This document shows, in pieces, positions 21,146-55,124 of a stretch of 58,341 nt of DNA. The stretch covers positions 1 to 58,341 of the forward strand of contig NZ_AYXG01000131.1 of NCBI RefSeq assembly GCF_000564855.1, given 5' to 3'. Made by a program: the position numbers and the translations under genes. This DNA is from Actinokineospora spheciospongiae (GTDB taxonomy: Bacteria > Actinomycetota > Actinomycetes > Mycobacteriales > Pseudonocardiaceae). The notes under the pieces are model-generated. The model saw only the letters and a program-made list of their open reading frames with translations. It was not told where the DNA came from and made no database searches. How positions within the stretch are numbered: position 1 is the first letter of the stretch; each line of letters begins with the position of its first letter.

Positions 21146-21745
21146 GTGAGCCCTTCCGACGTGGCGAACCTGCTCGACCGCAAGCTCGACATCTGCTTCG
21201 GACACGGCGACCAGAACGGCAACGGCGTGCTGGAGCCCGCCGACGCCCTCGCCCTGGCCGCCCGCACGGTCGCCGCGCTCGGCGAGCCGTTCGGCTCGCC
21301 CAAGGCGATCGCGCTGTTCAGCGCGTTCGACACGTTCTGGCAGCACCTGTCCAGGGAGCTGGACTCCAACAACGACGGCAAGGTGACGCCGCTGGAGTGG
21401 CGCACCGGCCTCAAGCGGGCGTTCTCCGGTGAGGACGGCAACTTCGAGGAGGGCTTCCGGCCGCTGGCCCAGGCCCTGTTCGACCTGTGCGACAAGTCCG
21501 GCGACGGCAAGGTCCAGCCGGGCGAGTTCGCCGCGTACCACCGGGCGTTCGGCACCTCGTCGGCGAACGTGCGCATCGCGTTCGAGAAGCTCGACCGCAA
21601 CGGCGACGGGTACCTGACGGTCGACGAGCTGGTGCAGGCGTGGAAGGAGTACTACACCTCCACCGACCCCGAGGCCCGGGGCAACTGGCTCTACGGCGAC
21701 ATCTTCGGCGCGACCGTCTGGGACGGGGACAAGGTCCTGCTCTGA
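21146..21745 (+). CDS. Four-EF-hand calcium-binding protein (calerythrin-like)
   Basis: The 199-residue protein has four 12-residue EF-hand loops, at residues 22-33 (DQNGNGVLEPAD), 73-84 (DSNNDGKVTPLE), 116-127 (DKSGDGKVQPGE) and 150-161 (DRNGDGYLTVDE). All keep acidic first and last positions and the central glycine, so all four may bind calcium. Layout and size resemble calerythrin/sarcoplasmic calcium-binding proteins. The GTG at 21146 follows AGGTGG at about 10 bp; no signal peptide, so cytoplasmic. It ends 60 bp before the PKS start, on the same strand, and so probably belongs to the same transcript. Its role there is unknown. Confidence 0.88.
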   Translation: MSPSDVANLLDRKLDICFGHGDQNGNGVLEPADALALAARTVAALGEPFGSPKAIALFSAFDTFWQHLSRELDSNNDGKVTPLEWRTGLKRAFSGEDGNFEEGFRPLAQALFDLCDKSGDGKVQPGEFAAYHRAFGTSSANVRIAFEKLDRNGDGYLTVDELVQAWKEYYTSTDPEARGNWLYGDIFGATVWDGDKVLL

Positions 21746-21805
21746 GGCACCGGTGGCCGGGGCCCACTGGCCCCGGCCACCCTTTTCCGGCACGCAGGGG
21801 AGGGA

Positions 21806-24800
21806 ATGGCAGTGGGGTTGGACGAGCCGGTCGCGGTCATCGGGATGTCGTGCCGGTGCGCCGGGGGAATTGATTCACCAGCCGCTTTGTGGGATTTTCT
21901 CATGACCGGCTCGAATGCTGTCGGGAGCATTCCGGACAATCGGTGGAAATCGTATGCCGAACGCGGTTGGGAGTTCGCACGCGCCATTCGCGGGCGCGTT
22001 TCCCAGGGGTCGTTCCTGGCCGATGTGTCCGGTTTCGACGCGGAGTTCTTCGGGATGACCGCACGCGAGGCGCGACTGGTCGACCCGCAACACCGGCTCG
22101 CCATGGAACTGGCCTGGGAAGCGCTCGAACACGCGGGCGTCCCGGCCCGCTCACTGGCGGGCACCGACACCGGGGTGTGGGTCGGCATCGGCTCGGAGGA
22201 CTACGGGCGCAGGCTGCTGGAGGACCTGCCGACCGTCGAACCATGGACGGGGATCGGTTCCTCGCAGTGCGGTGCGCCCAACCGCGTCTCGTACGCGCTC
22301 GACCTGCGCGGCCCCAGTGTCGCGGTGGACACCGCCTGTTCCTCGTCCCTGGTCGCCGTGCACCAGGCGGTGCAGGCGCTGCGGCTCGGTGAGGTCCCGT
22401 TGGCGCTGGCGGGCGGGGTGATGGTCATGTCGGCCCCCGGGCTGTCGGTGGTGCTCGACCGGGCCGGGGCCACCGCGCCGGACGGGCGGTCCAAGCCGTT
22501 CGACGCAGCCGCCGACGGCTACGGCCGGGGCGAGGGCGGCGCGCTGCTGGTGCTCAAGCGGCTCTCCGACGCCCGGCGCGACGGCGACCGGGTGTTGGCG
22601 GTCCTGCGCGGCGGGGCCGTGCGCCAGGACGGGCGCACCGACGGGATCATGGCGCCCAGCGGGCCCGCCCAGGAACACCTGCTGCGCGCGGCCTACGCGG
22701 CGTCCGGGGTGGACCCGGCCTCGGTCGGCTACGTCGAGGCCCACGGCACCGGGACCCGCGCGGGCGACCCGGTCGAGGCCGGGGCGCTGGCCGCCGTCCT
22801 CGGCGCGGGCAGGCAGGCCGAGCAGCCGTGCCTGATCGGTTCGGTCAAGGGCAACGTCGGGCACCTGGAGGCGGGCGCGGGCGCGGTCGGCCTGGTCAAG
22901 GCCGTCCTCGCGGTGGCGTCCGGCACGATCCCGCCGACCGCGTCCACCGCCGGTCCGCACCCGGGCATCCCCTGGGAGCGCAACGGGCTGCGCCTGGTGA
23001 CCGAGCCGACCCCCTTCCCCGGCGAGGTCCGCCGGGCCGGGGTCGCGGGCTACGGCTACGGCGGCACCATCGCCCACCTCGTCGTCGAGCAGGCCCCGCC
23101 CACCGCCCCCGTGCCGCGACCGCACTCCCGCCCCGTCCTCTTCCCCGTCTCCGGTGATTCACCGGAAGCGTTACGGGACAACGGTTCCCGGCTCGCCGAC
23201 TGGTTGCGGTCGCACCCGGAGGCGGACCTGGCCGCCGTGTCGGACACGTTGGCGACCCGCCGTTCGCACCTGGCCTGCCGCGCGGTCGTCGTCGCGGAGG
23301 ACCGGGACGACCTGGTCGCCGGGCTGGGCGACCTGCGCGGGTCGACGGTCACCCGCACCGAGGTCGACCCGGTGTTCGTGTTCTCCGGCCACGGTGCCCA
23401 GTGGGCCGGGATGGGCCGGGAACTGCTCGCGGAGGAACCGGTGTTCGCCCGCGCCATCGACGAGCTGGACCCGGTGTACGCGGCGGAGCTGGGGCTCAGC
23501 GCCCGCGACATCATCACCGGTGCCCACCCGCTGGGCACCGACCTGGTCCAGGCGGCCATCGTGGCGATCCAGCTCGCGCTGACCGACGTCTGGCGCGACC
23601 GGGGTGTCCGGCCCGCCGCCGTCGTCGGACACTCGGTGGGCGAGATCGCCGCCGCCGCGGCGGCCGGGGTGCTCAGCCGCGCCGACGCCGCCCGGCTGGC
23701 CTGCCGACGGGCGGTGCTGCTGCGGCAGGTGGCCGGACGCGGCGCGATGGTCATGGTGGCGCTGCCCTTCGCCGAGGTGGCCGCGCGCCTCGACGGGGAC
23801 CCGCACGTCACCGCGGCCATCGAGTCCTCTCCGGGCACCACGGTTGTCTCCGGGTCACCGGGCGCCGTCGAGCGGGTGAGTGCGCGCTTCGCCGCGCTGG
23901 GCGCGCCGGTGCGCCGCGTGGACTCCGACGTCGCCTTCCACGGCCCGCAGATGCGCCCGCTGTGCGCCGGGCTGGCCGAGGCGGCCGCGTCGCTCGCCGC
24001 GGCGCAGCCTGCGGTCCCGCTCTACAGCACCGCGCTGCCGGACCCGCGCGACCCGGCCGACCGCGACGCCGGGTACTGGGTGGCGAACCTGCGCAACCCG
24101 GTGCGCTTCGCGGGCGCGGTGACCGCCGCCGTGGCCGACGGGCACCGGGTCTTCCTGGAGGTGTCCACCCACCCCGTGGTCGCGCACTCCATCGGCGAGA
24201 CCGCCCCGGAGGTCGCCGTCGCGCACACGCTGCGCCGCCACCGGCCCGAGCGGCGCACCCTGCTGGAGAACGCCGCCGCGCTGCACGCCGCGGGCGGGCG
24301 GGTCGACTGGACCGCCCTGGTCCCGCGCGCCGGGCTGGCCGACCTGCCCACCACCGCCTGGCAGCGGCGCGAGCACTGGGCCGGGGAGCGGCCCAGGCCC
24401 GCGGGCGGGCGCGGGCACGACCCGGCCGAGCAGAGCCTGCTCGGCGCGGACGCCATCACCGTGCGCGGACCGGTGCCGGTGACGGTGTGGCACACCCGGC
24501 TCGACCACGACTCCCGCCCCTACCCCGGGGACCACCCGGTCGCGGGCAGCGAGATCGTGCCCGCCGCCGTCCTGCTCAACACGTTCCTGCGGGCCGCCGG
24601 GACCACGGCGCTGCGCGACGTGCGGCTGCGCGTCCCGGTGGCCACCTCCCCGGCCAGGGAGGTGCAGGTCAGCGCCCAGGACGGCGCGCTGCGGCTGTCC
24701 TCGCGGGTGGACGGCGACTGGCTGACCCACACCACCGCCACCGCCGGGACGGCCGGGCCGCCGGCCCGGGCGGCGGCGCGGCTGGTCGGCACGCGCATCC

Positions 24801-26767
24801 CGTCGACGTCGGTGGTGACCCGACTCGCCCGGCTCGGGGTGCTGTCGATGGGGCTGGAGTGGACGGTGACCGAGCTGCGCCGGGGCCACCGCCTGCTCAG
24901 CGCCCGGGTCGAGGTGCCGGGCACCTGGGCCGAACTGCTCGACGCGGTCCTGTCGACGGCGTCGGTGGCGTTCCCCGGACCGGCTCGGCTGCGGATGCCC
25001 GCGGCCGTCGACCGCCTGTCGCTGGCGCAGGAGGCCCCGACCGACGCGGTGTTCAGCGTGCGCGTGCGGACCGGGGACACCGTCGACGTGGACATCGCGT
25101 CCGCGTCCGGCGTGCCCGCCGGGATGCTGCGGGGGCTGCGGTTCGGCACGCCGGACGCGGACGGGGCCTCGGCGGCGGGTCTGCTGCACGAGCTGACCTG
25201 GCAGCCGGTGACCGCGCCGGAGCACGAGCCCGGCGCGACCGCGGCCGTCCTCGGCGACGCCCCGGACCTGGTGGCCGCCCTGGGTTCGCGGCTGGTGCCC
25301 GCCGACCGGGCCGAGGTGCTGGTGTTCGCCCCGGAGCAGACCGGGGACGACACGGCCGCCGCGGTGTCGGACCTGGTGTGGCGGCTGCGCGAGGTGGTGC
25401 TCGCCCACCCCGGGCGGCGGGTGGTGTGCGTGACCCGGGGCGTGCGCACGGCGCGGGCGCGGGAGGGCCTGGCGCAGACCGCGCTGTGGGGCATGGCCCG
25501 TGGGCTCGCCGCGGAGTACCCGGAGCAGTGGGGCGGGGTCCTCGACCTGGTCGCCGACCCCACCGCCGAGGACCTGGCCGCGGTGGCGCGGCTGGTGGGC
25601 TCGGGCGTCGACGAGGACGTCGTGGCGGTCGCGGGCGGCCGGGCGACGGCGGCCCGGCTGCGCGCGGCCGTGCCCGGCAGGCTCGACGGCGGCCCGCGGT
25701 GCAGGCCGGACGGCACGTACCTGGTCACCGGCGGGTCCGGGGCGCTGGGCGGCCGGGTGGCCCGGTGGCTGGTGGAGCGCGGGGCGCGCAGGCTGCTGCT
25801 GCTCAGCCGCTCCGGCCGGGTGGGCCGGGGGCTGCGCGCCGACCTGGAGGCCGCGGGCGCGACCGTGCGCGGGCTCGCCGCCGACGTCGCCGACGAAACC
25901 GCGACCAGGGCCGCGCTGGCCGAGGTCGGGTTCCCGCCCGTGCGCGGCGTCGTGCACGCCGCCGGGGCGGTGCTGTCCGGGGCCGCGGCCGACCTGACCC
26001 GCGCCGAGCTGGACGCCGTGCTCGCCCCCAAGGTGGCCGGGTCGCTGGTGCTGCACCGGGTGTTCCCGCCGGGCACCCTGGACTTCCTGGTGCTGTTCTC
26101 CTCCGCCGGGCAACTGCTGCGGCTGCCGGGGCAGGCCGCGTACTCGGCGGCCAACGCCTTCCTCGACGGGCTGGCCCGGCACCGGCGCTCGCTCGGCGAC
26201 CGCGACGCGGTCGCCCTGGCCTGGACGAGCTGGCGCGGGCTGGGCATGGCCGCGTCGGCGGCCGCGGTGGACGCCGAGCTGGCCGCGCGCGGCACCGACG
26301 CCGTCAGCGCCGAGGAGGCGCTGCGCGCCTGGTCCAGGGTGGACAGCGGCATGGCGGGCAACCTCGCGGTGCTGCGGGTGCTGCCCGAGGACCCCGGCGG
26401 CCCCGACCCGCTCGACGTCCCGCTGCTGCGCGGGCTCGTCGAGCGCGGACCGGCGCGGCGGGCCCCCGTGCCCTGGGTGTCGCTGACCGGGCAGGCCAGG
26501 GTCGACTTCCTGGTGGCCGAGGTCCGCGCCGCCGCCGCCGAGGTGCTGGGGGCCGCGCCCGACCGGGTCGACCCGCGCAGGCCGCTGCCCGAGCTGGGCC
26601 TGGACTCGCTGCTGGCGGTGGCGCTGCGCCGGGAACTGGGCGCGCGCCTCGGGGTCACCGTCGCCGCGACCCTGCTCTGGCACCACCCCACCGTCACCGC
26701 CATCGCCCACCACCTCGCCCGGGACGCCTCCGCCCCGCGGCCCGAGCCGGAGAGGAAGACCGCATGA
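21806..26767 (+). CDS. Iterative type I polyketide synthase, 6-methylsalicylate synthase type
   Basis: The 1653-residue enzyme reads KS-AT-TH/DH-KR-ACP. KS residues are Cys178 (DTACSSS), His313 (EAHGTGT) and His353 (GNVGH). The AT has GHSVG (Ser610) and AFH near 712, which favours malonyl-CoA. The third domain starts at PYPGDHPVAGSEIVPAA (His910), a signature shared with the thioester-hydrolase/dehydratase domain of 6-MSAS enzymes. KR has TGGSGALGG near 1305 and Tyr1446 in YSAAN; the ACP serine is Ser1601 in GLDSL. There is no thioesterase. Bacterial relatives (ChlB1, AziB, AviM, CalO5 families) make 6-methylsalicylate, orsellinate or naphthoates; an active-looking KR favours a reduced ring such as 6-methylsalicylate. 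Codon 456 is TTA. Codons 13-40 are unusually AT-rich. It overlaps the next gene by ATGA. Confidence 0.93.
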   Translation: MAVGLDEPVAVIGMSCRCAGGIDSPAALWDFLMTGSNAVGSIPDNRWKSYAERGWEFARAIRGRVSQGSFLADVSGFDAEFFGMTAREARLVDPQHRLAMELAWEALEHAGVPARSLAGTDTGVWVGIGSEDYGRRLLEDLPTVEPWTGIGSSQCGAPNRVSYALDLRGPSVAVDTACSSSLVAVHQAVQALRLGEVPLALAGGVMVMSAPGLSVVLDRAGATAPDGRSKPFDAAADGYGRGEGGALLVLKRLSDARRDGDRVLAVLRGGAVRQDGRTDGIMAPSGPAQEHLLRAAYAASGVDPASVGYVEAHGTGTRAGDPVEAGALAAVLGAGRQAEQPCLIGSVKGNVGHLEAGAGAVGLVKAVLAVASGTIPPTASTAGPHPGIPWERNGLRLVTEPTPFPGEVRRAGVAGYGYGGTIAHLVVEQAPPTAPVPRPHSRPVLFPVSGDSPEALRDNGSRLADWLRSHPEADLAAVSDTLATRRSHLACRAVVVAEDRDDLVAGLGDLRGSTVTRTEVDPVFVFSGHGAQWAGMGRELLAEEPVFARAIDELDPVYAAELGLSARDIITGAHPLGTDLVQAAIVAIQLALTDVWRDRGVRPAAVVGHSVGEIAAAAAAGVLSRADAARLACRRAVLLRQVAGRGAMVMVALPFAEVAARLDGDPHVTAAIESSPGTTVVSGSPGAVERVSARFAALGAPVRRVDSDVAFHGPQMRPLCAGLAEAAASLAAAQPAVPLYSTALPDPRDPADRDAGYWVANLRNPVRFAGAVTAAVADGHRVFLEVSTHPVVAHSIGETAPEVAVAHTLRRHRPERRTLLENAAALHAAGGRVDWTALVPRAGLADLPTTAWQRREHWAGERPRPAGGRGHDPAEQSLLGADAITVRGPVPVTVWHTRLDHDSRPYPGDHPVAGSEIVPAAVLLNTFLRAAGTTALRDVRLRVPVATSPAREVQVSAQDGALRLSSRVDGDWLTHTTATAGTAGPPARAAARLVGTRIPSTSVVTRLARLGVLSMGLEWTVTELRRGHRLLSARVEVPGTWAELLDAVLSTASVAFPGPARLRMPAAVDRLSLAQEAPTDAVFSVRVRTGDTVDVDIASASGVPAGMLRGLRFGTPDADGASAAGLLHELTWQPVTAPEHEPGATAAVLGDAPDLVAALGSRLVPADRAEVLVFAPEQTGDDTAAAVSDLVWRLREVVLAHPGRRVVCVTRGVRTARAREGLAQTALWGMARGLAAEYPEQWGGVLDLVADPTAEDLAAVARLVGSGVDEDVVAVAGGRATAARLRAAVPGRLDGGPRCRPDGTYLVTGGSGALGGRVARWLVERGARRLLLLSRSGRVGRGLRADLEAAGATVRGLAADVADETATRAALAEVGFPPVRGVVHAAGAVLSGAAADLTRAELDAVLAPKVAGSLVLHRVFPPGTLDFLVLFSSAGQLLRLPGQAAYSAANAFLDGLARHRRSLGDRDAVALAWTSWRGLGMAASAAAVDAELAARGTDAVSAEEALRAWSRVDSGMAGNLAVLRVLPEDPGGPDPLDVPLLRGLVERGPARRAPVPWVSLTGQARVDFLVAEVRAAAAEVLGAAPDRVDPRRPLPELGLDSLLAVALRRELGARLGVTVAATLLWHHPTVTAIAHHLARDASAPRPEPERKTA

Positions 26768-28146
26768 CCGGCGAACACGACCCGCTCACCTTCGCGGGCA
26801 ACCCCGTGGAGTACTTCAACGGCTCCCGACTGGCCATGCACACGCTGCCCCGGGGGGAACTCGAACGCCTGCAACTGGAGGCGGCGCGCCTGCGCTTCGC
26901 CGCGCTGCGCGACCGGGTCCCGGTGCTGACGACCATGGCCGAGGAGCAGGGCATCACCGAACTGCGCGGGCTCGACGACGCCGCGCCGCTGCTGTTCCCG
27001 CACACCGTCTACAAGTCCTACCCCGCCTCCCTGCTGACCGACAACCGGTTCGACCGGCTCACCCGGTGGCTGGCCCGGCTGACCACGGTCGACCTGTCCG
27101 AAGTGGACGCTCGTGGCCTGGGTTCGATCGACGCCTGGCTCGATCTGGTCGACGAGCGGACCCCGCTGCGGCTGGCGCACTCCTCCGGCACCACCGGCAC
27201 CATGTCGTTCCTGCCGCACACCGCCGTGCAGTACGACCGCCTCTACGAGATGGTCCGGCTCGACGTGACCCCGGACGCCGACGTGGACGTGGTGTGGCCC
27301 AGCTTCCGCACCGGGCGCAGCGGCATCGCCAGGCACGCCACCGCCATGGGGCAGCAGCTCGGCGGGAGCCCCGACCGGTTCCACACCCTGCACGACGGGC
27401 ACCTCAGCGCCGACGTGATGCACCTGGCCGGGCGCCTGCGCGCCGCCGCGGCCCGGGGTGAGCTGGACCGGGTCCGGGTACCGGCGAACCTGGCCGAGCG
27501 CCGGGCGGAGTTCGAGGACGCGCTCGACGCCACCGGCCGCGGCATGGGCGAGTTCGTGCAGCGGCTCGCCGACACCCTCGGCGGGCGGCGGATCGCCTCG
27601 CTGAGCACCTGGGACGTCTTCCACGGCATGGCCGAGGCCGGGTCGGGCCGGGGCCTGCGGGGGGTGTTCGCCCCCGATTCGGTGCTGCTGCCCGGCGGCG
27701 GGTCCAAGGCGGGGGCGCTGCCCGAGGACTGGGACCGCGGCGTCATGGCCTTCGCGGGCGTCGACCGGCTGGCCTACGTCTACGCGATGGTCGAGGTGAT
27801 CGCGCTCAACATGCTCTGCCAGGACAACGCCTACCACGTGGAGCCGTGGCTGGTGCTGTACCTGCTCGACCCCGACACCGGGCGGGTCCTGCCCCGGCGG
27901 GGCACGGTCACCGGCCGCGCCGCGTTCCTCGACCTGTCCGCCGACCTGTTCTGGGGCGGGTTCGTCTCCGGGGACAGGGTCACCGCCACCTGGGAGCCGT
28001 GCCCGTGCGGGCGCACCACCCCCCGGCTGCACCACGGCACCGTCGGCCGCTTCGGCGGGGCGGGCGGGGACGACAAGATCACCTGCGCGGCGACGGCGAG
28101 CGCGCTCACCGAGACGCTGGAGTTCCTGAACGGGGCACTGGTGTGA
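26764..28146 (+). CDS. LuxE/PaaK-like adenylate-forming acyl-protein synthetase
   Basis: A 460-residue protein with the ATP-site motif HSSGTTG at residues 139-145, followed by a PaaK/LuxE-like C-terminal part with CPCGRTTPRL at 413-422. LuxE adenylates a fatty acid and carries the acyl group on a cysteine near its C-terminus before handing it to LuxC; here Cys441, 19 residues from the end, or the CPC pair are candidates. It is longer than LuxE (about 370 residues). It overlaps the PKS stop by ATGA and the LuxC-like gene by GTGA, so I infer that it activates the PKS-derived acid, or accepts it from the ACP, for reduction. The alternative is a CoA ligase without a reductive role. Confidence 0.72.
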   Translation: MTGEHDPLTFAGNPVEYFNGSRLAMHTLPRGELERLQLEAARLRFAALRDRVPVLTTMAEEQGITELRGLDDAAPLLFPHTVYKSYPASLLTDNRFDRLTRWLARLTTVDLSEVDARGLGSIDAWLDLVDERTPLRLAHSSGTTGTMSFLPHTAVQYDRLYEMVRLDVTPDADVDVVWPSFRTGRSGIARHATAMGQQLGGSPDRFHTLHDGHLSADVMHLAGRLRAAAARGELDRVRVPANLAERRAEFEDALDATGRGMGEFVQRLADTLGGRRIASLSTWDVFHGMAEAGSGRGLRGVFAPDSVLLPGGGSKAGALPEDWDRGVMAFAGVDRLAYVYAMVEVIALNMLCQDNAYHVEPWLVLYLLDPDTGRVLPRRGTVTGRAAFLDLSADLFWGGFVSGDRVTATWEPCPCGRTTPRLHHGTVGRFGGAGGDDKITCAATASALTETLEFLNGALV

Positions 28147-29597
28147 GCGCCGTCTTCGTGCCCGCGGTCGTGCGCGGGCGGGTGCACGAGGCCGACCCGG
28201 TCGAGTTCCCGGCGGGGTTCCACGGCCCGGACCCGGTCGGCCTGCTGCCGGTGCTGCCGCTGCGCGACCCGGTGGCGCTGTCGGACCTGCAATCGGTCCC
28301 GTTCGCCGAGGTCGTGGACCTGCTCGCGGAGCTGGGCGGACAGCTCGCGCTGTCGCGCAACGATTTCCTGCAGGAGGCGCTGTCCCTGCTGCCGGAGTTC
28401 TCCGACCTCACCGCCGACGTGCTGCGCTCGACCTACCTGCAACTGCCGGGCCTGTTCGCCCCGGAAGCGGTGTGGGCGCTGGCCGAGCGGGCGATCGGCG
28501 CGGAGTTCCTCGACGGCTGGGTGTCCTCCGGCGGCGCGGCCGTGCGGGCGTTCGGGGCGCGGGCGGTGCACGTCATCGCGGGCAACAACCCGATCATCGC
28601 GGCCATCACCGTGGTCCGCAGCGCCGTCACCCGCGGCGACGCGATCATCAAGGCACCCGCGAACGACCCGGTGACCGCGCCCGCCATCCTCCGCACCCTC
28701 GTCGAGCTGGCACCGGAGCACCCGCTGACCCGGCACCTGTCGGTGCTGTACTGGAAGGGCGGCGACACCGGGTTCGAGCGCGGCCTCTACCACCCGGCGC
28801 AGGTCGAGAAGGTGGTGGCGTGGGGCGGGTTCGGCTCGGTCCAGCACGTGACCCAGTACCTGCGGCCGGGGCTGGAGCTGATCGCCCTGGACCCGAAGCT
28901 CTCGGCCACCGTGATCGGTCCCGAGGCGTTCGCCTCCGAGGCGGCGCTGCGCGAGACGGCCAGGCTGGCCGCCGCCGACGTCGGCGTGCTCAACCAGGAG
29001 GGCTGCTTCAACGCCAGGGTCATCTACGCCGCCACCGGCACCGACGAGGCCGGGCTGGCCACCGCGCTGCGTTGGGGCGCGATGCTGCACGAGGAGGTGC
29101 AGCGGCTGCCCGCCGCGCTGAGCACCCCCGCCCGCCGGTTCGACCCCGAGCTGCGGGAGAACCTGCGCGGCCTCGCCGCCGCCCCGGACTGGTACCGGGT
29201 CGTCGGCGGCCGGGGCGGCGAGGGCGCGGTGGTGGTGTCGCTGTCGGCGGAGCCGGTCGACTTCCGCGACGCGCTGTCGGGGCGGGTGGCCAACGTCGTC
29301 CCGATCGACGACCCGGCCGAGGCGGTGCGCGCGATGAACAGCTACACCCAGACCGTCGGCGTCTACCCGGACTCGCTCAAGCGGGTCCTGCGCGACACCG
29401 CGCCGCTCTACGGCGTGCAGCGGCTGGTGTCGCTCGGCTACGCCACCCACTTCCGCCCCGAGGTCCCCCAGGACGGGATGGAGCCGACCCGCCGCATGAT
29501 CAAGTGGATCACCGACGAGAGCTACGACCCGGCGTCGACGCACCCGTTCGCGCACCTGGCGCCGGACGCGCCCGCCTGGGCCGGGGAGGTCCGATGA
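28143..29597 (+). CDS. LuxC-like acyl-CoA reductase
   Basis: The 484-residue protein fits the LuxC family of aldehyde-dehydrogenase-fold acyl reductases. HVIAGNNPIIAAITVVRSAVTRGDAIIKAPANDP at about 143-176 (in part) is the family core, and the catalytic thiol is Cys288 in NQEGCFNARVIYA. LuxC takes an acyl group from LuxE or CoA and reduces it with NADPH to the aldehyde. Its start overlaps the LuxE-like gene by GTGA and its stop overlaps the P450 by ATGA. A LuxE-LuxC pair next to an aromatic PKS, without luciferase genes, suggests reduction of an aromatic acid to an aldehyde. It could also release product directly from the ACP. Confidence 0.82.
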   Translation: MSAVFVPAVVRGRVHEADPVEFPAGFHGPDPVGLLPVLPLRDPVALSDLQSVPFAEVVDLLAELGGQLALSRNDFLQEALSLLPEFSDLTADVLRSTYLQLPGLFAPEAVWALAERAIGAEFLDGWVSSGGAAVRAFGARAVHVIAGNNPIIAAITVVRSAVTRGDAIIKAPANDPVTAPAILRTLVELAPEHPLTRHLSVLYWKGGDTGFERGLYHPAQVEKVVAWGGFGSVQHVTQYLRPGLELIALDPKLSATVIGPEAFASEAALRETARLAAADVGVLNQEGCFNARVIYAATGTDEAGLATALRWGAMLHEEVQRLPAALSTPARRFDPELRENLRGLAAAPDWYRVVGGRGGEGAVVVSLSAEPVDFRDALSGRVANVVPIDDPAEAVRAMNSYTQTVGVYPDSLKRVLRDTAPLYGVQRLVSLGYATHFRPEVPQDGMEPTRRMIKWITDESYDPASTHPFAHLAPDAPAWAGEVR

Positions 29598-30772
29598 GCT
29601 GCCCGGTCGACCGCCTCACCGCCGACTTCGACCACCACGACCCCGAGTTCACCCCCGACCTGGCCCTGCGGGTGCACCGCGCGGTGCGGGAACGGGGCAG
29701 GGTGGCGCACTCGTCGGCGCACGGCGGGATGTGGGTCCTGTCCCACCACGCCGACGTCGACGCCGCCCTGCGCGACCACGAGACCTTCGCCTCCGGCCAC
29801 GGCGTGTTCTTCCCCAGGGCGGCGGGCACACCCCGGTTCGCCCCGCTGGAGTACGACCCGCCGGAGCAGACCCGCTACCGCGCGCTGATGCGCCCGCCGT
29901 TCACCCCGGCGCGGGCCAAGGAGTCCGCGGCGGCGATCACCGGGCTGGTGGCGGAGCTGGTGCGCCCCGTCGTCGAACGCGGCCACGGCGACCTGGTCGC
30001 CGAACTCGCCACCCCGCTGCCGCTGGCCGTGGTGGGCGCGGCGGTCGGCTTCTCCCCCGAGGCCCGCGCCCGCATCCGCGAACTGACCAGCAACACGTGG
30101 AAGGGCATGCCCAGGGACGCCGACTCCGGCGGCTTCTGGCCCCCGTTCGCCGAACTGTTCCGCACCGAGATCCGCCGCGCCCGCGAAAACCCCGGCGACG
30201 ACCACCTCTCCACCCTGGTCCGCACCCGCGTCGACGGGGAACTGCTCACCGAGGACGACCTGCACGTCATGCTGGTCGCCTACGCGATCGCGGGCCACGA
30301 GACCACCATGAACACCATCGGCCACCTGTGCTGGGTCCTCGCCCGCCGCCCCGACCTGCAAGACCTGCTGCGCGAACACCCCGACCTGCGACCACGCGCG
30401 GTCGAGGAGACCCTGCGGCTGTGGGCCCCGGTCGACCACGGCACCCGGTTCACCACCCGCGAGGTGGAGGTGGGCGGCACCACCATCCCCGCGGGCGCCC
30501 GCGTGGTCCTGCTGACCGGCGCCGCCAACCGCGACCCGGCGGTCTTCGACGACCCGGACGAGTTCCGCCTCGACCGCCCGCACAACCGGCACCTGACCTT
30601 CGGCCAGGGCGTGCACTTCTGCCTCGGCGCCCACCACGCCAGGACCGAGTTCCTCGCCGTCCTCGACGAACTGGCCCGGCACGGCAACTACCGGCTCACC
30701 GCCGAACCGACCCGCTACTTCGAGAACGGCAGGCACATCTGCGTCGACCGCCTCCCGGTGGAGTTCGACTGA
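29594..30772 (+). CDS. Cytochrome P450 of the PKS operon
   Basis: A 392-residue class I bacterial P450. The I-helix has AGHETT, the K-helix has EETLR, and the heme ligand is Cys343 in FGQGVHFCLGA. RHLTFGQG and the short N-terminus are typical of secondary-metabolism P450s. It is the last of four genes joined by 4-bp overlaps and should tailor the PKS product or the aldehyde. No ferredoxin is encoded in this operon; the nearest is at 53021. The next gene follows after 118 bp. Confidence 0.93.
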   Translation: MSCPVDRLTADFDHHDPEFTPDLALRVHRAVRERGRVAHSSAHGGMWVLSHHADVDAALRDHETFASGHGVFFPRAAGTPRFAPLEYDPPEQTRYRALMRPPFTPARAKESAAAITGLVAELVRPVVERGHGDLVAELATPLPLAVVGAAVGFSPEARARIRELTSNTWKGMPRDADSGGFWPPFAELFRTEIRRARENPGDDHLSTLVRTRVDGELLTEDDLHVMLVAYAIAGHETTMNTIGHLCWVLARRPDLQDLLREHPDLRPRAVEETLRLWAPVDHGTRFTTREVEVGGTTIPAGARVVLLTGAANRDPAVFDDPDEFRLDRPHNRHLTFGQGVHFCLGAHHARTEFLAVLDELARHGNYRLTAEPTRYFENGRHICVDRLPVEFD

Positions 30773-51830: not shown

Positions 51831-53024
51831 TCACCAGCGGACGGGGAGTTCGTAGACGCCGTACACCGCCCCGTCGTGCTTGAACGGGACCTTGTCGAGG
51901 TCGGTGGCCAATTCCAGGGTGGGGATGCGGCGGTAGAGGGTGCTGTAGACGACCTGGAGTTCCAGGCGGGCCAACTGCTGCCCCAGGCACTGGTGGACGC
52001 CGAAGCCGAAGGCGAGGTGCCTGCGGGCGTCGCGGCGCAGGTCGAGGCGGTCGGGGTCGGGGAAGACCTCGGCGTCGCGGTTGGCGATGTCGTTGGCCAT
52101 GATCAGGCCCTCGCCCGCGCGGATGACCTGGTCGCCGACGGGGATGTCGGCGGTGGCGACGCGGCGGCGGCCGCTGTGGGTGATGTTGAGGTAGCGCAGC
52201 AGTTCCTCCACCGCCGAGGCGACCAGGGTGGGGTCGTCGGAGTCGCGCAGGAGGGCCAGTTGGTCGGGGTTCTCGAAGAGGGCGAGGGTGCCCAGGGCGA
52301 TCATGTTGGCCGTGGTCTCGTGCCCGGCGATGAGCAGCAGCACCCCCATCTGCGCCGCCTCGGACCGGGTCAGCTCGCCCGCCTCCACGCGGGTGGCGAG
52401 GCCGGAGAGCAGGTCGTCCGCCGGGTGCTCCATCTTCGTGCCGACCAGGTCGTCCAGGTAGGACATCAGCTTGCCCATCGCGGCGGTGCGCTGCTCGGTG
52501 GAGACGTCGCGCTTGACGATGGTCTTGCTGCTGTCCTGGAAGTACTCGTGGTCGGCGTACGGGACGCCGAGCAGTTCGCAGATCACCAGTGACGGCACCG
52601 GCAGCGCGAAGGCGTCGACCAGGTCCACCGGGTTCGGTCCGGCCAGCAGTTCGTCGACCAGGTCGTCGACGATGCGCTGGATGGCCGGGCGCAGGGCCTG
52701 CACCCGCTTGGTGGCGAACGGCGCGGTCACCATCCGGCGCAGCCTGCCGTGCTCGGGGTCGTCCATCAGGATGAAGCTGATCGACGTGCCCCCGGGCGGG
52801 ATCGGGGCGGAGCTGGGGTAGCCGGGGCGGGTGATGTCGGCGCTGACCCGGGGGTCGGCCATCAGCGCGCGCTGCTCGGCGTGCCGGGTGACCAGCCACG
52901 GAGTGCTGCCGTCCCACAGGCCGACCCGGGCCAGCGGGCCCTCCTCCTGCTTGGCCCGCGCGGCGGGCGGCGGGTCGAACGGGCACCCGGGGGCGCGCCG
53001 CATGGGGAACAGCTCCGCGCTCAC
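51831..53024 (-). CDS. Cytochrome P450 (with adjacent ferredoxin)
   Basis: A 397-residue P450 with the I-helix AGHETT, the K-helix EELLR and the heme-cysteine motif FGFGVHQCLGQ. The N-terminus CPFDPPP and the whole pattern match the CYP105/CYP107-like soluble enzymes. Its GTG start at 53024 overlaps the ferredoxin stop (GTGA), so electron carrier and oxidase are translated together. It is the last complete gene of the operon that starts with the P450 at 55124. Confidence 0.93.
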   Translation of the reverse strand: MSAELFPMRRAPGCPFDPPPAARAKQEEGPLARVGLWDGSTPWLVTRHAEQRALMADPRVSADITRPGYPSSAPIPPGGTSISFILMDDPEHGRLRRMVTAPFATKRVQALRPAIQRIVDDLVDELLAGPNPVDLVDAFALPVPSLVICELLGVPYADHEYFQDSSKTIVKRDVSTEQRTAAMGKLMSYLDDLVGTKMEHPADDLLSGLATRVEAGELTRSEAAQMGVLLLIAGHETTANMIALGTLALFENPDQLALLRDSDDPTLVASAVEELLRYLNITHSGRRRVATADIPVGDQVIRAGEGLIMANDIANRDAEVFPDPDRLDLRRDARRHLAFGFGVHQCLGQQLARLELQVVYSTLYRRIPTLELATDLDKVPFKHDGAVYGVYELPVRW

Positions 53025-53221
53025 GGGCCCTCCGCGATCTCGATCGCGGCGGCCGGGCAGACCTCGGCGGCCTCGCGCACGGCCTCGTGCAGGTCCGGCC
53101 GCGGGGCGGGGTCGAGCAGGACCACGATGCCGTCCTCGTCGCGCTGGTCGAACACGTCCGGGGCGAGCAGGACGCACTGGCCCGCTCCGCAGCACCGGTC
53201 CTCGTCCACCGTCACCTTCAT
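53021..53221 (-). CDS. [3Fe-4S] ferredoxin
   Basis: A 66-residue ferredoxin with cysteines in DRCCGAGQC and EVCPAAAI, the pattern of actinobacterial single-cluster [3Fe-4S] ferredoxins that feed P450s. FDQRDEDGIVVLLD is the usual middle segment. It ends overlapping the P450 start at 53024. It probably serves both P450s of this operon, and perhaps the PKS-operon P450, which has none of its own. Confidence 0.92.
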   Translation of the reverse strand: MKVTVDEDRCCGAGQCVLLAPDVFDQRDEDGIVVLLDPAPRPDLHEAVREAAEVCPAAAIEIAEGP

Positions 53222-53268
53222 CGTCGCCTGCTCCTTCGTCGTGGTGGTGCGTTCGGGTTCCGGGCCGG

Positions 53269-53916
53269 TCAGGTGACCGGGGCCTGCCAGAGGCAGGTGA
53301 TCGCGTCGATCAGGCCGGTCCCGGCGTCGTGCCAGGTGGCCCTGGGGGTGGGGGTGCCGTCGGCGAGGGCGCGTTCGCGTTCGGCGACCATGTGCACCAT
53401 GAGCTGCCGGGCCATGTCGCCGCGCTCGGCGCGGACGTCGGCGGGCAGGTCGGGCAGGCAGCGGTGCAGCCCGTCGAGGATCTGCCGCAGCGACGGCGCC
53501 TCCAGCGCCTCCTCGATCATGATGCCGCGCAGCGCGGGGTCGGTCATGACCTGCGCGCCGAAGCGGGCGAACCAGGTGGGCCCGACCGCGCCCGCCAGGT
53601 GGTCGGTCACCGGGCGCACCAGGCAGGCCACCCAGTCGCGGATGTCGGTGGAGCCCGCGCAGGCGGCCACCATCCGCGCCCGCAGCACCTCGGTGGGTTC
53701 GGAGTGCCTGCGGGTGATGGCCCGGACCAGGTCGGCCTTGGTGCCGAAGTGGTAGCCGACGGCGGCGTTGTTGCCCTGGCCCGCCGCCTCGCTGACCTGG
53801 CGGTTGGACACGGCGTAGACGCCGTGCTCGGCGAAGAGGCGTTCGGCGGTGTCGAGGATCTGGTCGCGGGTGGAGACCGCCCGCTCGGTGCGCACCGTTC
53901 GGCCGGGCACGGTCAC
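53269..53916 (-). CDS. TetR-family regulator within the P450 operon
   Basis: A 215-residue TetR protein with a DNA-binding domain at residues 16-65 (ILDTAERLFAEHGVYAVSNRQVSEAAGQGNNAAVGYHFGTK in part), of the subgroup that often has NNAAVGYHFGTKADLV. Its GTG start at 53916 overlaps the stop of the P450 gene (GTGA), so it is made with the operon it probably represses. It is the obvious candidate to bind TAAGTCA-N6-TGACTTA at 55186, and then also the near-copy at 8425. Confidence 0.9.
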   Translation of the reverse strand: MTVPGRTVRTERAVSTRDQILDTAERLFAEHGVYAVSNRQVSEAAGQGNNAAVGYHFGTKADLVRAITRRHSEPTEVLRARMVAACAGSTDIRDWVACLVRPVTDHLAGAVGPTWFARFGAQVMTDPALRGIMIEEALEAPSLRQILDGLHRCLPDLPADVRAERGDMARQLMVHMVAERERALADGTPTPRATWHDAGTGLIDAITCLWQAPVT

Positions 53917-55124
53917 CACCTGACCGGGAGTTCGCGCAGCCCGCCGACCGCGAGTCCTTCGACCCGGCGCAGCTCGGCGGCCGGGACGGCGAGTTCGAGG
54001 GTGGGCAGCCTGCGGACCAGCACGTCGAGGACCGCCTGCAACTCCGTGCGCGCCAGCGCCTGGCCCAGGCAGGAGTGCGGCCCGACGCCGAAGGTCAGGT
54101 GCGGGTTGGGGCTGCGGGCGAGGTCCATGTCCTCGGCGCCGTCGAAGGCGGTGGCGTCGCGGTTGGCGGCGGCCATGCTGCACACCACGGTGGTGCCCGG
54201 CGGCAGGTCGGTGTCGGCGACGCGGGCGCCCTCGGTGAGGAACCGGGGCATGCCGAACCCGGGGTTGGCGTCGAACCGCAGCACCTCCTCCACGGCGGTG
54301 CGCACCAGCGACGGGTCGGCCACCAGCCGCTCCCAGCGGGAGCGGTCGGCGAGCAGCATCCCCACCATCTTGCCGATCATGTTCGCCGTGGTCTCGTGCC
54401 CGGCGACGAGCAGCGCCTGCCCGGTGGCGACCAGTTCGCCGTCGGTGAGGCCGCCCTCCTCCTCGCTGCCCGCGATGAGGGCGCTGAGCAGGTCCTCGCC
54501 CGGCGCGGCGCGCTTGGCCGCGACGTGCTCGGTCATGTAGGCGCCGAACTCGGTCTGCGACCGGCGGATCTCCGCGAGGTCGTAGCGGGTGAGGTTGAGC
54601 AGCGTGTCGGACCAGTGGGCGAACCGGTCGCGGTCGGAGTCGGGCACGCCGAGCAGGTCGCAGATGACCCACACCGGCAGCGGGAAGCCCAGGTGCGCCT
54701 TGAGGTCGGCGGGGGCGCCCGCCGACCTCAAGGTGTCGATCAGCTCGTCGGCCAGCGCCTCGATCTGCGGGCGCAGCGCCGCCATCCGCTTGGCGGTGAA
54801 CCAGCGGCCGACCGCGCGCCGCCACCGCTGGTGGCCCTCGCCGGTCTGCGGGAGGGCGTTGGCCATGTTGCTGTTGAACACGCCGCCGGACTCGTCGCTG
54901 GAGATGCGCGCGGCGCCGGGGGCGGTGCGGGCGAAGCGGGGGTCGGACAGCACCTGCTTGACGTCGTCGTAGCGGGTCAGCAGGGTCGCGGTGTCGCCGC
55001 TGGGCAGGGTCACCGTGGCGACCGGGCAGCCGGTGCGCAGCTCGGCCCACTCCGGTGGCGGTTCCAGTGCGGCCGGGCTGGGGATCGGGTACTCCAACAC
55101 GTGATCGTCATCGACGTGCGCCAC
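53913..55124 (-). CDS. Cytochrome P450
   Basis: A 403-residue P450: I-helix AGHETT, K-helix EEVLR, heme motif FGVGPHSCLGQ, and LPVWVICDLLGVP, typical of CYP105-like enzymes. The GTG at 55124 follows GAGGAGG. The gene is first in the operon P450-TetR-ferredoxin-P450 and divergent from a DHA2 exporter. The shared promoter region carries the TAAGTCA-N6-TGACTTA operator. Substrate unknown. Confidence 0.93.
   Translation of the reverse strand: MAHVDDDHVLEYPIPSPAALEPPPEWAELRTGCPVATVTLPSGDTATLLTRYDDVKQVLSDPRFARTAPGAARISSDESGGVFNSNMANALPQTGEGHQRWRRAVGRWFTAKRMAALRPQIEALADELIDTLRSAGAPADLKAHLGFPLPVWVICDLLGVPDSDRDRFAHWSDTLLNLTRYDLAEIRRSQTEFGAYMTEHVAAKRAAPGEDLLSALIAGSEEEGGLTDGELVATGQALLVAGHETTANMIGKMVGMLLADRSRWERLVADPSLVRTAVEEVLRFDANPGFGMPRFLTEGARVADTDLPPGTTVVCSMAAANRDATAFDGAEDMDLARSPNPHLTFGVGPHSCLGQALARTELQAVLDVLVRRLPTLELAVPAAELRRVEGLAVGGLRELPVRW

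Follow-up and report, generated by a model that had tools for sequence, protein, structure and literature searches.

Four adjacent genes of Actinokineospora spheciospongiae, encoding an iterative polyketide synthase (PKS), a LuxE-like acyl-activating protein, a LuxC-family acyl reductase and a cytochrome P450, appear to form a short pathway in which 6-methylsalicylate (6-MSA) or a close relative would undergo ATP- and NAD(P)H-dependent reduction to a salicylaldehyde, together with one oxidation by the P450. We put the probability of this reading at roughly 0.6. The genes lie in that order, preceded by a gene for an EF-hand protein, at 21146-30772 on the plus strand of the window, by which we mean the whole stretch of DNA analyzed (58,341 nucleotides), contig C130 of the 7.5-Mb genome G000 (262 contigs). 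The gene order, active-site motifs, conserved cysteines and conserved synteny described here are direct observations. The cassette comprises the following features:

21146..21745 (start 21146 or 21161), plus strand: EF-hand protein, calerythrin-like, four EF loops, 194-199 aa (Pfam EF-hand; PDB calerythrin; orthologs in loci L029 and L080).
21806..26767, plus strand: iterative type I PKS, apparently of the 6-MSA-synthase type, KS-AT-TH/DH-KR-ACP, 1653 aa (Pfam, motifs).
21824..23107, plus strand: KS domain, approximate bounds, DTACSSS, EAHGTGT and GNVGH (Pfam, motifs).
23372..24295, plus strand: AT domain, GHSVGE and VAFH (Pfam, motifs).
24443..25210, plus strand: TH/DH domain, approximate bounds, HPVxGxEIVP with His910 and LLDAxxS with Asp1046 (weak PKS_DH_N match; motifs common to the aligned PKSs).
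25712..26236, plus strand: KR domain, NADPH motif and K-S-Y-N residues (Pfam, motifs).
26519..26716, plus strand: ACP domain, GLDSLL, Ser1601 region (Pfam, motifs).
26764..28146, plus strand: LuxE-like acyl-activating protein, 460 aa, motif HSSGTTG, Cys441 codon 28084-28086 (profile match to 7xc6_E; Cys conservation; PaaK/EhpF-type fold).
28143..29597, plus strand: LuxC-family acyl reductase, 484 aa, Cys288 codon 29004-29006 (PF05893; 7xc6_A; Cys conservation).
29594..30772, plus strand: cytochrome P450, 392 aa, AGHET, EETLR and FGQGVHFCLG (Pfam p450, motifs).

The four enzyme frames overlap consecutively by 4 bp, at ATGA, GTGA and ATGA, with frames and coordinates as given in an earlier note made from the letters of this DNA, and the EF-hand gene that it placed just ahead of the PKS was found there by Pfam. 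The PKS matched the Pfam ketoacyl synthase, AT, KR and PP-binding families and, weakly, PKS_DH_N at E 1e-3. All catalytic motifs that were checked are intact: the KS Cys and two His, the AT motifs GHSVGE and VAFH, His910 and Asp1046 of TH/DH, the K-S-Y-N residues and NADPH motif of KR, and the ACP Ser. A single KS-AT-TH/DH-KR-ACP module with intact motifs is what marks a 6-MSA synthase-type PKS, the architecture that the note had claimed, and the enzyme looks like one of this type, as judged in a set without a named reference enzyme. The VAFH motif presumably denotes a malonyl-type AT. An orsellinate reading was rejected, as the KR is intact, unlike in two related PKSs (L141 and L142), which lack this domain and resemble orsellinate synthases.

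The LuxE-like protein gave no match at E 1 when searched as a single sequence against PDB. A profile built from 19 relatives found the LuxE subunit of the LuxC-LuxE complex first (7xc6_E, E 2.4e-9) and PaaK-type ligases second (E 2.7e-6 and weaker); among the 19 relatives, with E up to 1, 3/19 matched Pfam LuxE (not the window copy) and 7/19 matched AMP-binding. Cys441, 19 residues from the C-terminus, is invariant in 39/39 aligned rows, and we take its position to be that of the acylated Cys of LuxE; in the LuxE of a lux copy included in the set (L048), a Cys lies 10 residues from the end. The tail Cys also aligns, with a modest probability of 74, with that of a Pantoea LuxE-like protein. After profile position 428-430, PaaK-type chains (9s3l, 4r1l, 6siw and 6wuq) continue for 104-120 residues, whereas the window protein has 38-40 left; after position 438, LuxE has 16 and the window protein 29. 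The protein therefore lacks the full C-terminal domain of PaaK-type aryl-CoA (coenzyme A) ligases and, like LuxE, carries a Cys near the C-terminus without a long C-terminal domain. S141, T143, G145, E344 and D404 are kept in 39/39 rows and Y340 in 38/39, and these conserved adenylation-motif positions fit activation of a free acid. An AlphaFold model scored 85.7 in the predicted local distance difference test (pLDDT), with residues 433-443 around Cys441 below 50, and had a predicted template modelling (pTM) score of 0.87. These comparisons support a LuxE-like adenylating protein rather than a plain CoA ligase.

The assignment of the reductase is firm on its matches to PF05893 (E 1.4e-40; 139.9 bits, cut-off 21) and 7xc6_A (E 6.5e-30), and Cys288 is invariant in 20/20 and 39/39 aligned rows. 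Both the LuxE-like adenylating enzyme with its HSSGTTG motif and the LuxC-like reductase with Cys288 thus stand as the note had described them. The score against the NCBIfam long-chain-fatty-acyl LuxC equivalog was 124.9 bits, far under the cut-off of 750, and we therefore place the window protein, by its score, in the LuxC superfamily but outside the luminescence equivalog. The P450 carries AGHET, EETLR and the Cys heme loop; its closest PDB structures are CYP125/CYP142-type enzymes and P450cin, which do not tell its substrate.

The occurrence of the gene set was surveyed with LuxE-like searches at three levels: 5/16 genomes of the genus (E 1e-3, two weak and partial), 19/397 genomes of the order (E 1e-3, several fragments or weak) and, with the profile, 26/394 genomes of the class (E 1e-20, with scoring limited to 4 candidates per genome). 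The class-level search gave 40 places, from which 20 neighborhoods were newly taken, while those in G000 (two), G109, G172 and G021 were already in the set; G641 is probably the Frankia contig of the set, having the same position in its contig. The neighborhoods studied were 13, these 20 more, one Frankia contig and plasmid stretches, most of them searched by tblastn with the window proteins. The note had proposed a genome search for the order PKS-LuxE-LuxC-P450, and besides the window, 7/38 LuxE-bearing loci in the trees contained all four genes (L027, L028, L029, L030, L031, L032 and L080), spanning three coded families (f1, f8 and f31) and Frankia; four of the seven have one gene inserted before the P450 gene. 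Group A (the window, L027 from Frankia, L029 and L080) has the window's order, with the EF-hand gene present in the 3/3 loci whose stretch includes the beginning of the PKS gene; in L027, the contig ends inside the PKS. In group B (L028, L030, L031 and L032), the inserted gene is KSIII-like, and genes for a stand-alone AT, an MFS protein and an AMP ligase lie nearby in 4/4 loci, joined by a cupin gene in 3/4; these families were assigned by gene call and reading, the L030 AT from the record annotation, and the L028 AT, ligase, cupin and KSIII were checked.

The 4-bp overlap of the PKS and LuxE-like genes is kept in 8/8 loci including the window. At the LuxE/LuxC junctions, the choice of start gives an overlap of 4 bp or 1 bp or directly adjoining genes, and a 4-bp LuxC/P450 overlap is possible in 4/4 group A loci, L027 and L080 having a second possible P450 start as well. 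The recurrence of the four genes in seven loci, together with the PKS/LuxE overlap, places the gene set beyond chance, and such conserved synteny makes one pathway likely. The PKS-linked rows (8/39) fall on one side of a branch in both the LuxE tree (Shimodaira-Hasegawa-like approximate likelihood ratio test, SH-aLRT, 91) and the LuxC tree (77). All trees were made by a quick method, and these two were flagged for long branches; they fit, but do not prove, a single origin of the PKS-reductase link.

Within group B, L028 (G000:C211:4000-23900) comes from the same genome as the window and represents a divergent second cluster of this type, and L030 is plasmid pLS1-1 of the ant-associated Pseudonocardia sp. 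HH130629-09. The group B KSIII-like copies read Ser (RQLSNGG) in 4/4 loci, and relatives beside other 6-MSA- or orsellinate-type PKSs read Cys (RQGCNGM and similar) in 5/5, which suggests that the group B protein transfers acyl groups instead of acting as a condensing enzyme. Downstream of the group B cluster in L032 (17669-19901) lie, by reading, a FecCD-like permease, an ATPase and a binding protein, a possible link to metal uptake.

In a tree of 25 similar PKSs, whose deep forks were weak and which included no named reference, the window PKS joins that of L080 (support 90). Group A PKSs were not recovered as a clade, yet such a clade was not rejected (approximately unbiased test, p-AU 0.291). 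A search with the TH/DH stretch gave matches in 23/394 class-level genomes at E 1e-10, of which 15/23 carry the codes f8/g31; 12 of these 15 loci were taken (L131-L140, L144 and L147), the three left out having weaker matches. In 12/12, the PKS is 46-49% identical to the window PKS and lies within about 5 kb of an L131-like ligase with a nonribosomal peptide synthetase (NRPS) near (truncated in L144, where the stretch ends). TIGR02275, the DHB-AMP-ligase type, was matched by the L131 ligase (E 4e-172; 573 bits, cut-off 724). Given the PPE-like genes of L131, we take the f8/g31 genomes for mycobacteria. Mycobactin P contains 6-MSA, and the arrangement suggests that these loci may supply 6-MSA for a mycobactin-like siderophore. 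Group B PKSs form one clade (support 100), sister to L145/L146 (SH-aLRT 96). In L145 (G536:C180), the PKS is accompanied by two AMP ligases, one of them PaaK-like by reading, as well as by a KSIII, an amidohydrolase and a small carrier; by its gene content, this neighborhood resembles nataxazole clusters. According to the excerpted text of PMC5445379, natPK is responsible for the 6-MSA part of nataxazole, and its expression in another strain led to a methylated product.

For substrate, chemistry, product and order of steps, we infer the following scheme. The PKS would assemble an acetyl and three malonyl units, carry out a single ketoreduction and so form 6-MSA or a close aryl acid, which the TH/DH domain would probably hydrolyze off the enzyme. 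The LuxE-like protein would adenylate the acid with ATP and take the acyl group onto Cys441, from which it would pass to Cys288 of LuxC; reduction of this thioester with NAD(P)H would yield an aryl aldehyde (2-hydroxy-6-methylbenzaldehyde or similar). The P450 may oxidize the ring or the methyl group, before or after aldehyde formation. A free acid is plausible here, since the excerpted text of PMC4797705 reports that release of 6-MSA from the fungal enzyme ATX is mediated by its THID. We favor this scheme because of the overlapping frames, the close junctions in relatives and the joint presence of the four enzymes in 8 loci; because the LuxE-like profile finds LuxE of 7xc6 first, the two cysteines are invariant and the PKS motifs, including KR, are intact; because group B PKSs are sister to L145/L146, with L145 nataxazole-like and natPK a 6-MSA synthase; and because THID release and the chemistry of GriC/GriD provide precedents.

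GriC/GriD, in grixazone biosynthesis of Streptomyces griseus, convert 3-amino-4-hydroxybenzoate to the aldehyde and, as far as the excerpt of PMC10179220 goes, which cites Suzuki 2007, likewise combine an AMP-binding activator with a separate reductase that take an aromatic acid to an aldehyde. Their substrate is no polyketide, and they were set beside the cassette by description, not by sequence. We assume a sequence likeness of GriC/GriD to LuxE/LuxC. The phenazine operon genes ehpF/ehpG are, in the excerpt of PMC11278526, an adjacent AMP-binding/aldehyde-dehydrogenase-family pair, that is, the same two gene families side by side, a comparison again made by description and not by pair sequence. 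They differ in having a phenazine substrate and no PKS. In a Foldseek search, the LuxE-like model matched 3hgu, 3hgv and 3l2k ('Phenazine Antibiotic Biosynthesis Protein') at E 8e-9 to 5e-8, which we take to be EhpF. From the known function of the pair, EhpF/EhpG is probably a two-part reductase for an aromatic acid. In nataxazole and cahuitamycin, the acid becomes part of a larger molecule, without reduction to an aldehyde. Both systems share with the cassette an iterative 6-MSA synthase with an acid-activating enzyme (in nataxazole, NatPK and the PaaK-like NatL2), and the excerpted texts mention no LuxC (PMC5445379, PMC4757757).

The luminous LuxC/LuxE systems share with the cassette the LuxC family and the LuxE profile match, and the LuxC Cys is kept in the L048 lux copy too, presumably of the Photorhabdus type. 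In contrast, the window LuxC is 24% identical to that copy, and, as the note had said, luciferase was not found: the window has 48 genes by a simple codon-usage gene call, 43 outside the cassette, and a Pfam scan of 42/43 (two at E 1e-3, forty at E 1e-8, one 60-aa open reading frame left out) found no luciferase, phenazine or second PKS family, nor was a luciferase family found among the 5 cassette proteins at E 1e-3. A saphenamycin/phenazine reading, with a 6-MSA ester of a phenazine and the pair reducing a phenazine acid, was dropped for want of a phenazine family among the same gene calls.

Several observations weigh against the reduction of 6-MSA, and they bear on different alternatives. 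The PKS tree was built, by the quick method, solely from PKSs chosen for their similarity and has a long branch in L029; a single clade of group A and B PKSs was rejected (p-AU 0.024), and the PKS product may therefore differ between the groups; and naphthoate-type PKSs carry a KR too. The tree disagreement would mean either that the PKS was exchanged or that the reductase-P450 part joined two related PKSs. Together with the comparison lacking named references, it leaves room for a PKS making another aryl acid (e.g., a bicyclic naphthoate or another alkyl salicylate) on which the same reductase pair would act. We hold this to be rather unlikely, given that the PKS agrees with 6-MSA types in size, motifs and the order of its domains, that the nearest relatives of group B are nataxazole-like, that the related PKSs of the 12/12 f8/g31 loci taken lie near a DHB-AMP-ligase-type gene and an NRPS, and that group B P450s are 57-58% identical to the window P450, suggesting a like substrate.

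Whether release is the sole role of THID is called unclear in the excerpted text of PMC4797705, which also lists thioester reduction among the release modes of iterative PKSs. LuxC might thus reduce the ACP-bound aryl thioester directly or via the Cys of the LuxE-like protein, with no free acid and the TH only aiding cyclization, and the PKS/LuxE-like overlap in every locus would suit such a hand-over. His910 and Asp1046 of the TH are kept, however, and the conserved adenylation positions of the LuxE-like proteins (S141, T143, G145, E344, D404 and Y340) suggest ATP activation of a free acid, so that we regard this route as unlikely.

The remaining counterpoints concern the LuxE-like protein. 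It has no Pfam or NCBIfam match at 1e-3, and none in Pfam even at E 1. Foldseek places PaaK CoA ligases first, followed by ClxA with 3-amino-4-hydroxybenzoate adenylate, NatL2 with salicylate and the phenazine protein structures (template modelling score by query length 0.44-0.56 for the best 42 matches), and LuxE of 7xc6 is absent from the best 50 of 1006 matches. The tail Cys is unaligned with the luminous LuxE Cys, as the alignments stop short of it. A CoA ligase acting with LuxC as an acyl-CoA reductase would agree with the Foldseek ranking; the C-terminal tail, far shorter than in PaaK-type chains and near that of LuxE, and the invariant tail Cys make it improbable. That the pair has some unrelated acid as its substrate and neighbors the PKS by chance, as the 31/39 LuxE-like rows without such a PKS might suggest (an absence that holds for about 8-10 kb a side or less, several stretches ending at a contig end), is hardly credible when the PKS-linked rows share one branch side and the set is kept across families.

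Searches of the open-licence PMC literature gave no paper describing a LuxC/LuxE pair joined to a PKS of the 6-MSA type. The note knew of no characterized aromatic polyketide pathway using a LuxC/LuxE pair; this stands for the PKS coupling, for which no report was found in that literature, but an activator with a separate reductase has precedents in GriC/GriD and ehpF/ehpG in the excerpts cited above. The coupling of a two-part aromatic acid reductase to an iterative aromatic PKS thus appears to be new, the parts themselves being known. Two candidate precedents were discarded: a solanimycin paper matched only through the author name Luxenburger, and the Dickeya zeae luxE/luxC genes belong to a cluster next to flagellar genes. 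If the reduction of 6-MSA to a salicylaldehyde is true, bacterial aromatic polyketides would reach aldehydes by a route apart from single-chain carboxylic acid reductases, four enzymes in less than 10 kb would be a genetically small source of oxidized salicylaldehydes, and LuxC/LuxE-type pairs would be a wider acid-reduction module with the luminescence enzymes as one branch. That the set is retained across unrelated genera, with a Frankia genome and the ant-associated Pseudonocardia plasmid among its carriers, points to a role.

Among group A loci, the EF-hand protein forms a conserved accessory: orthologs with 60-64% identity lie directly before the PKS in L029 and L080, and four EF loops were found in all three proteins by our own pattern. 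Calerythrin (1nya) was its best PDB match (E 1.2e-20), and obelin matched its C-terminal half (E 2.5e-9 at best), as expected for the fold. A bolder proposal, which we consider quite unlikely, is a new pathway class, in which the PKS would be off-loaded through a PKS to LuxE-Cys to LuxC-Cys relay to a reactive salicylaldehyde that is oxidized by the P450, with the calerythrin-type protein, a distant photoprotein relative, as a dedicated partner holding or sensing the product.

The window has a G+C content of 0.69-0.80 per 2 kb. To the left of the cassette, Pfam matches identified TetR-type regulators, an MMPL transporter and dehydrogenases for 3-hydroxyacyl-CoA and acyl-CoA. On the right come proteins that matched no family, one short-chain dehydrogenase and one regulator, with transporters beyond them. 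On the minus strand at 51831-55124 are two more P450 genes, a 4Fe-4S ferredoxin gene and a TetR regulator gene, and this ferredoxin might serve as a partner of the cassette P450. Two LuxE-like/LuxC pairs elsewhere have redox genes as neighbors: in L034 (2312-7206), a pyruvate:ferredoxin oxidoreductase-type protein and an FAD/ferredoxin oxidoreductase are encoded beside the pair, and on the Mycobacterium avium plasmid pP7a (L044:10817-14893), a luciferase-like F420-dependent monooxygenase gene lies directly before it.

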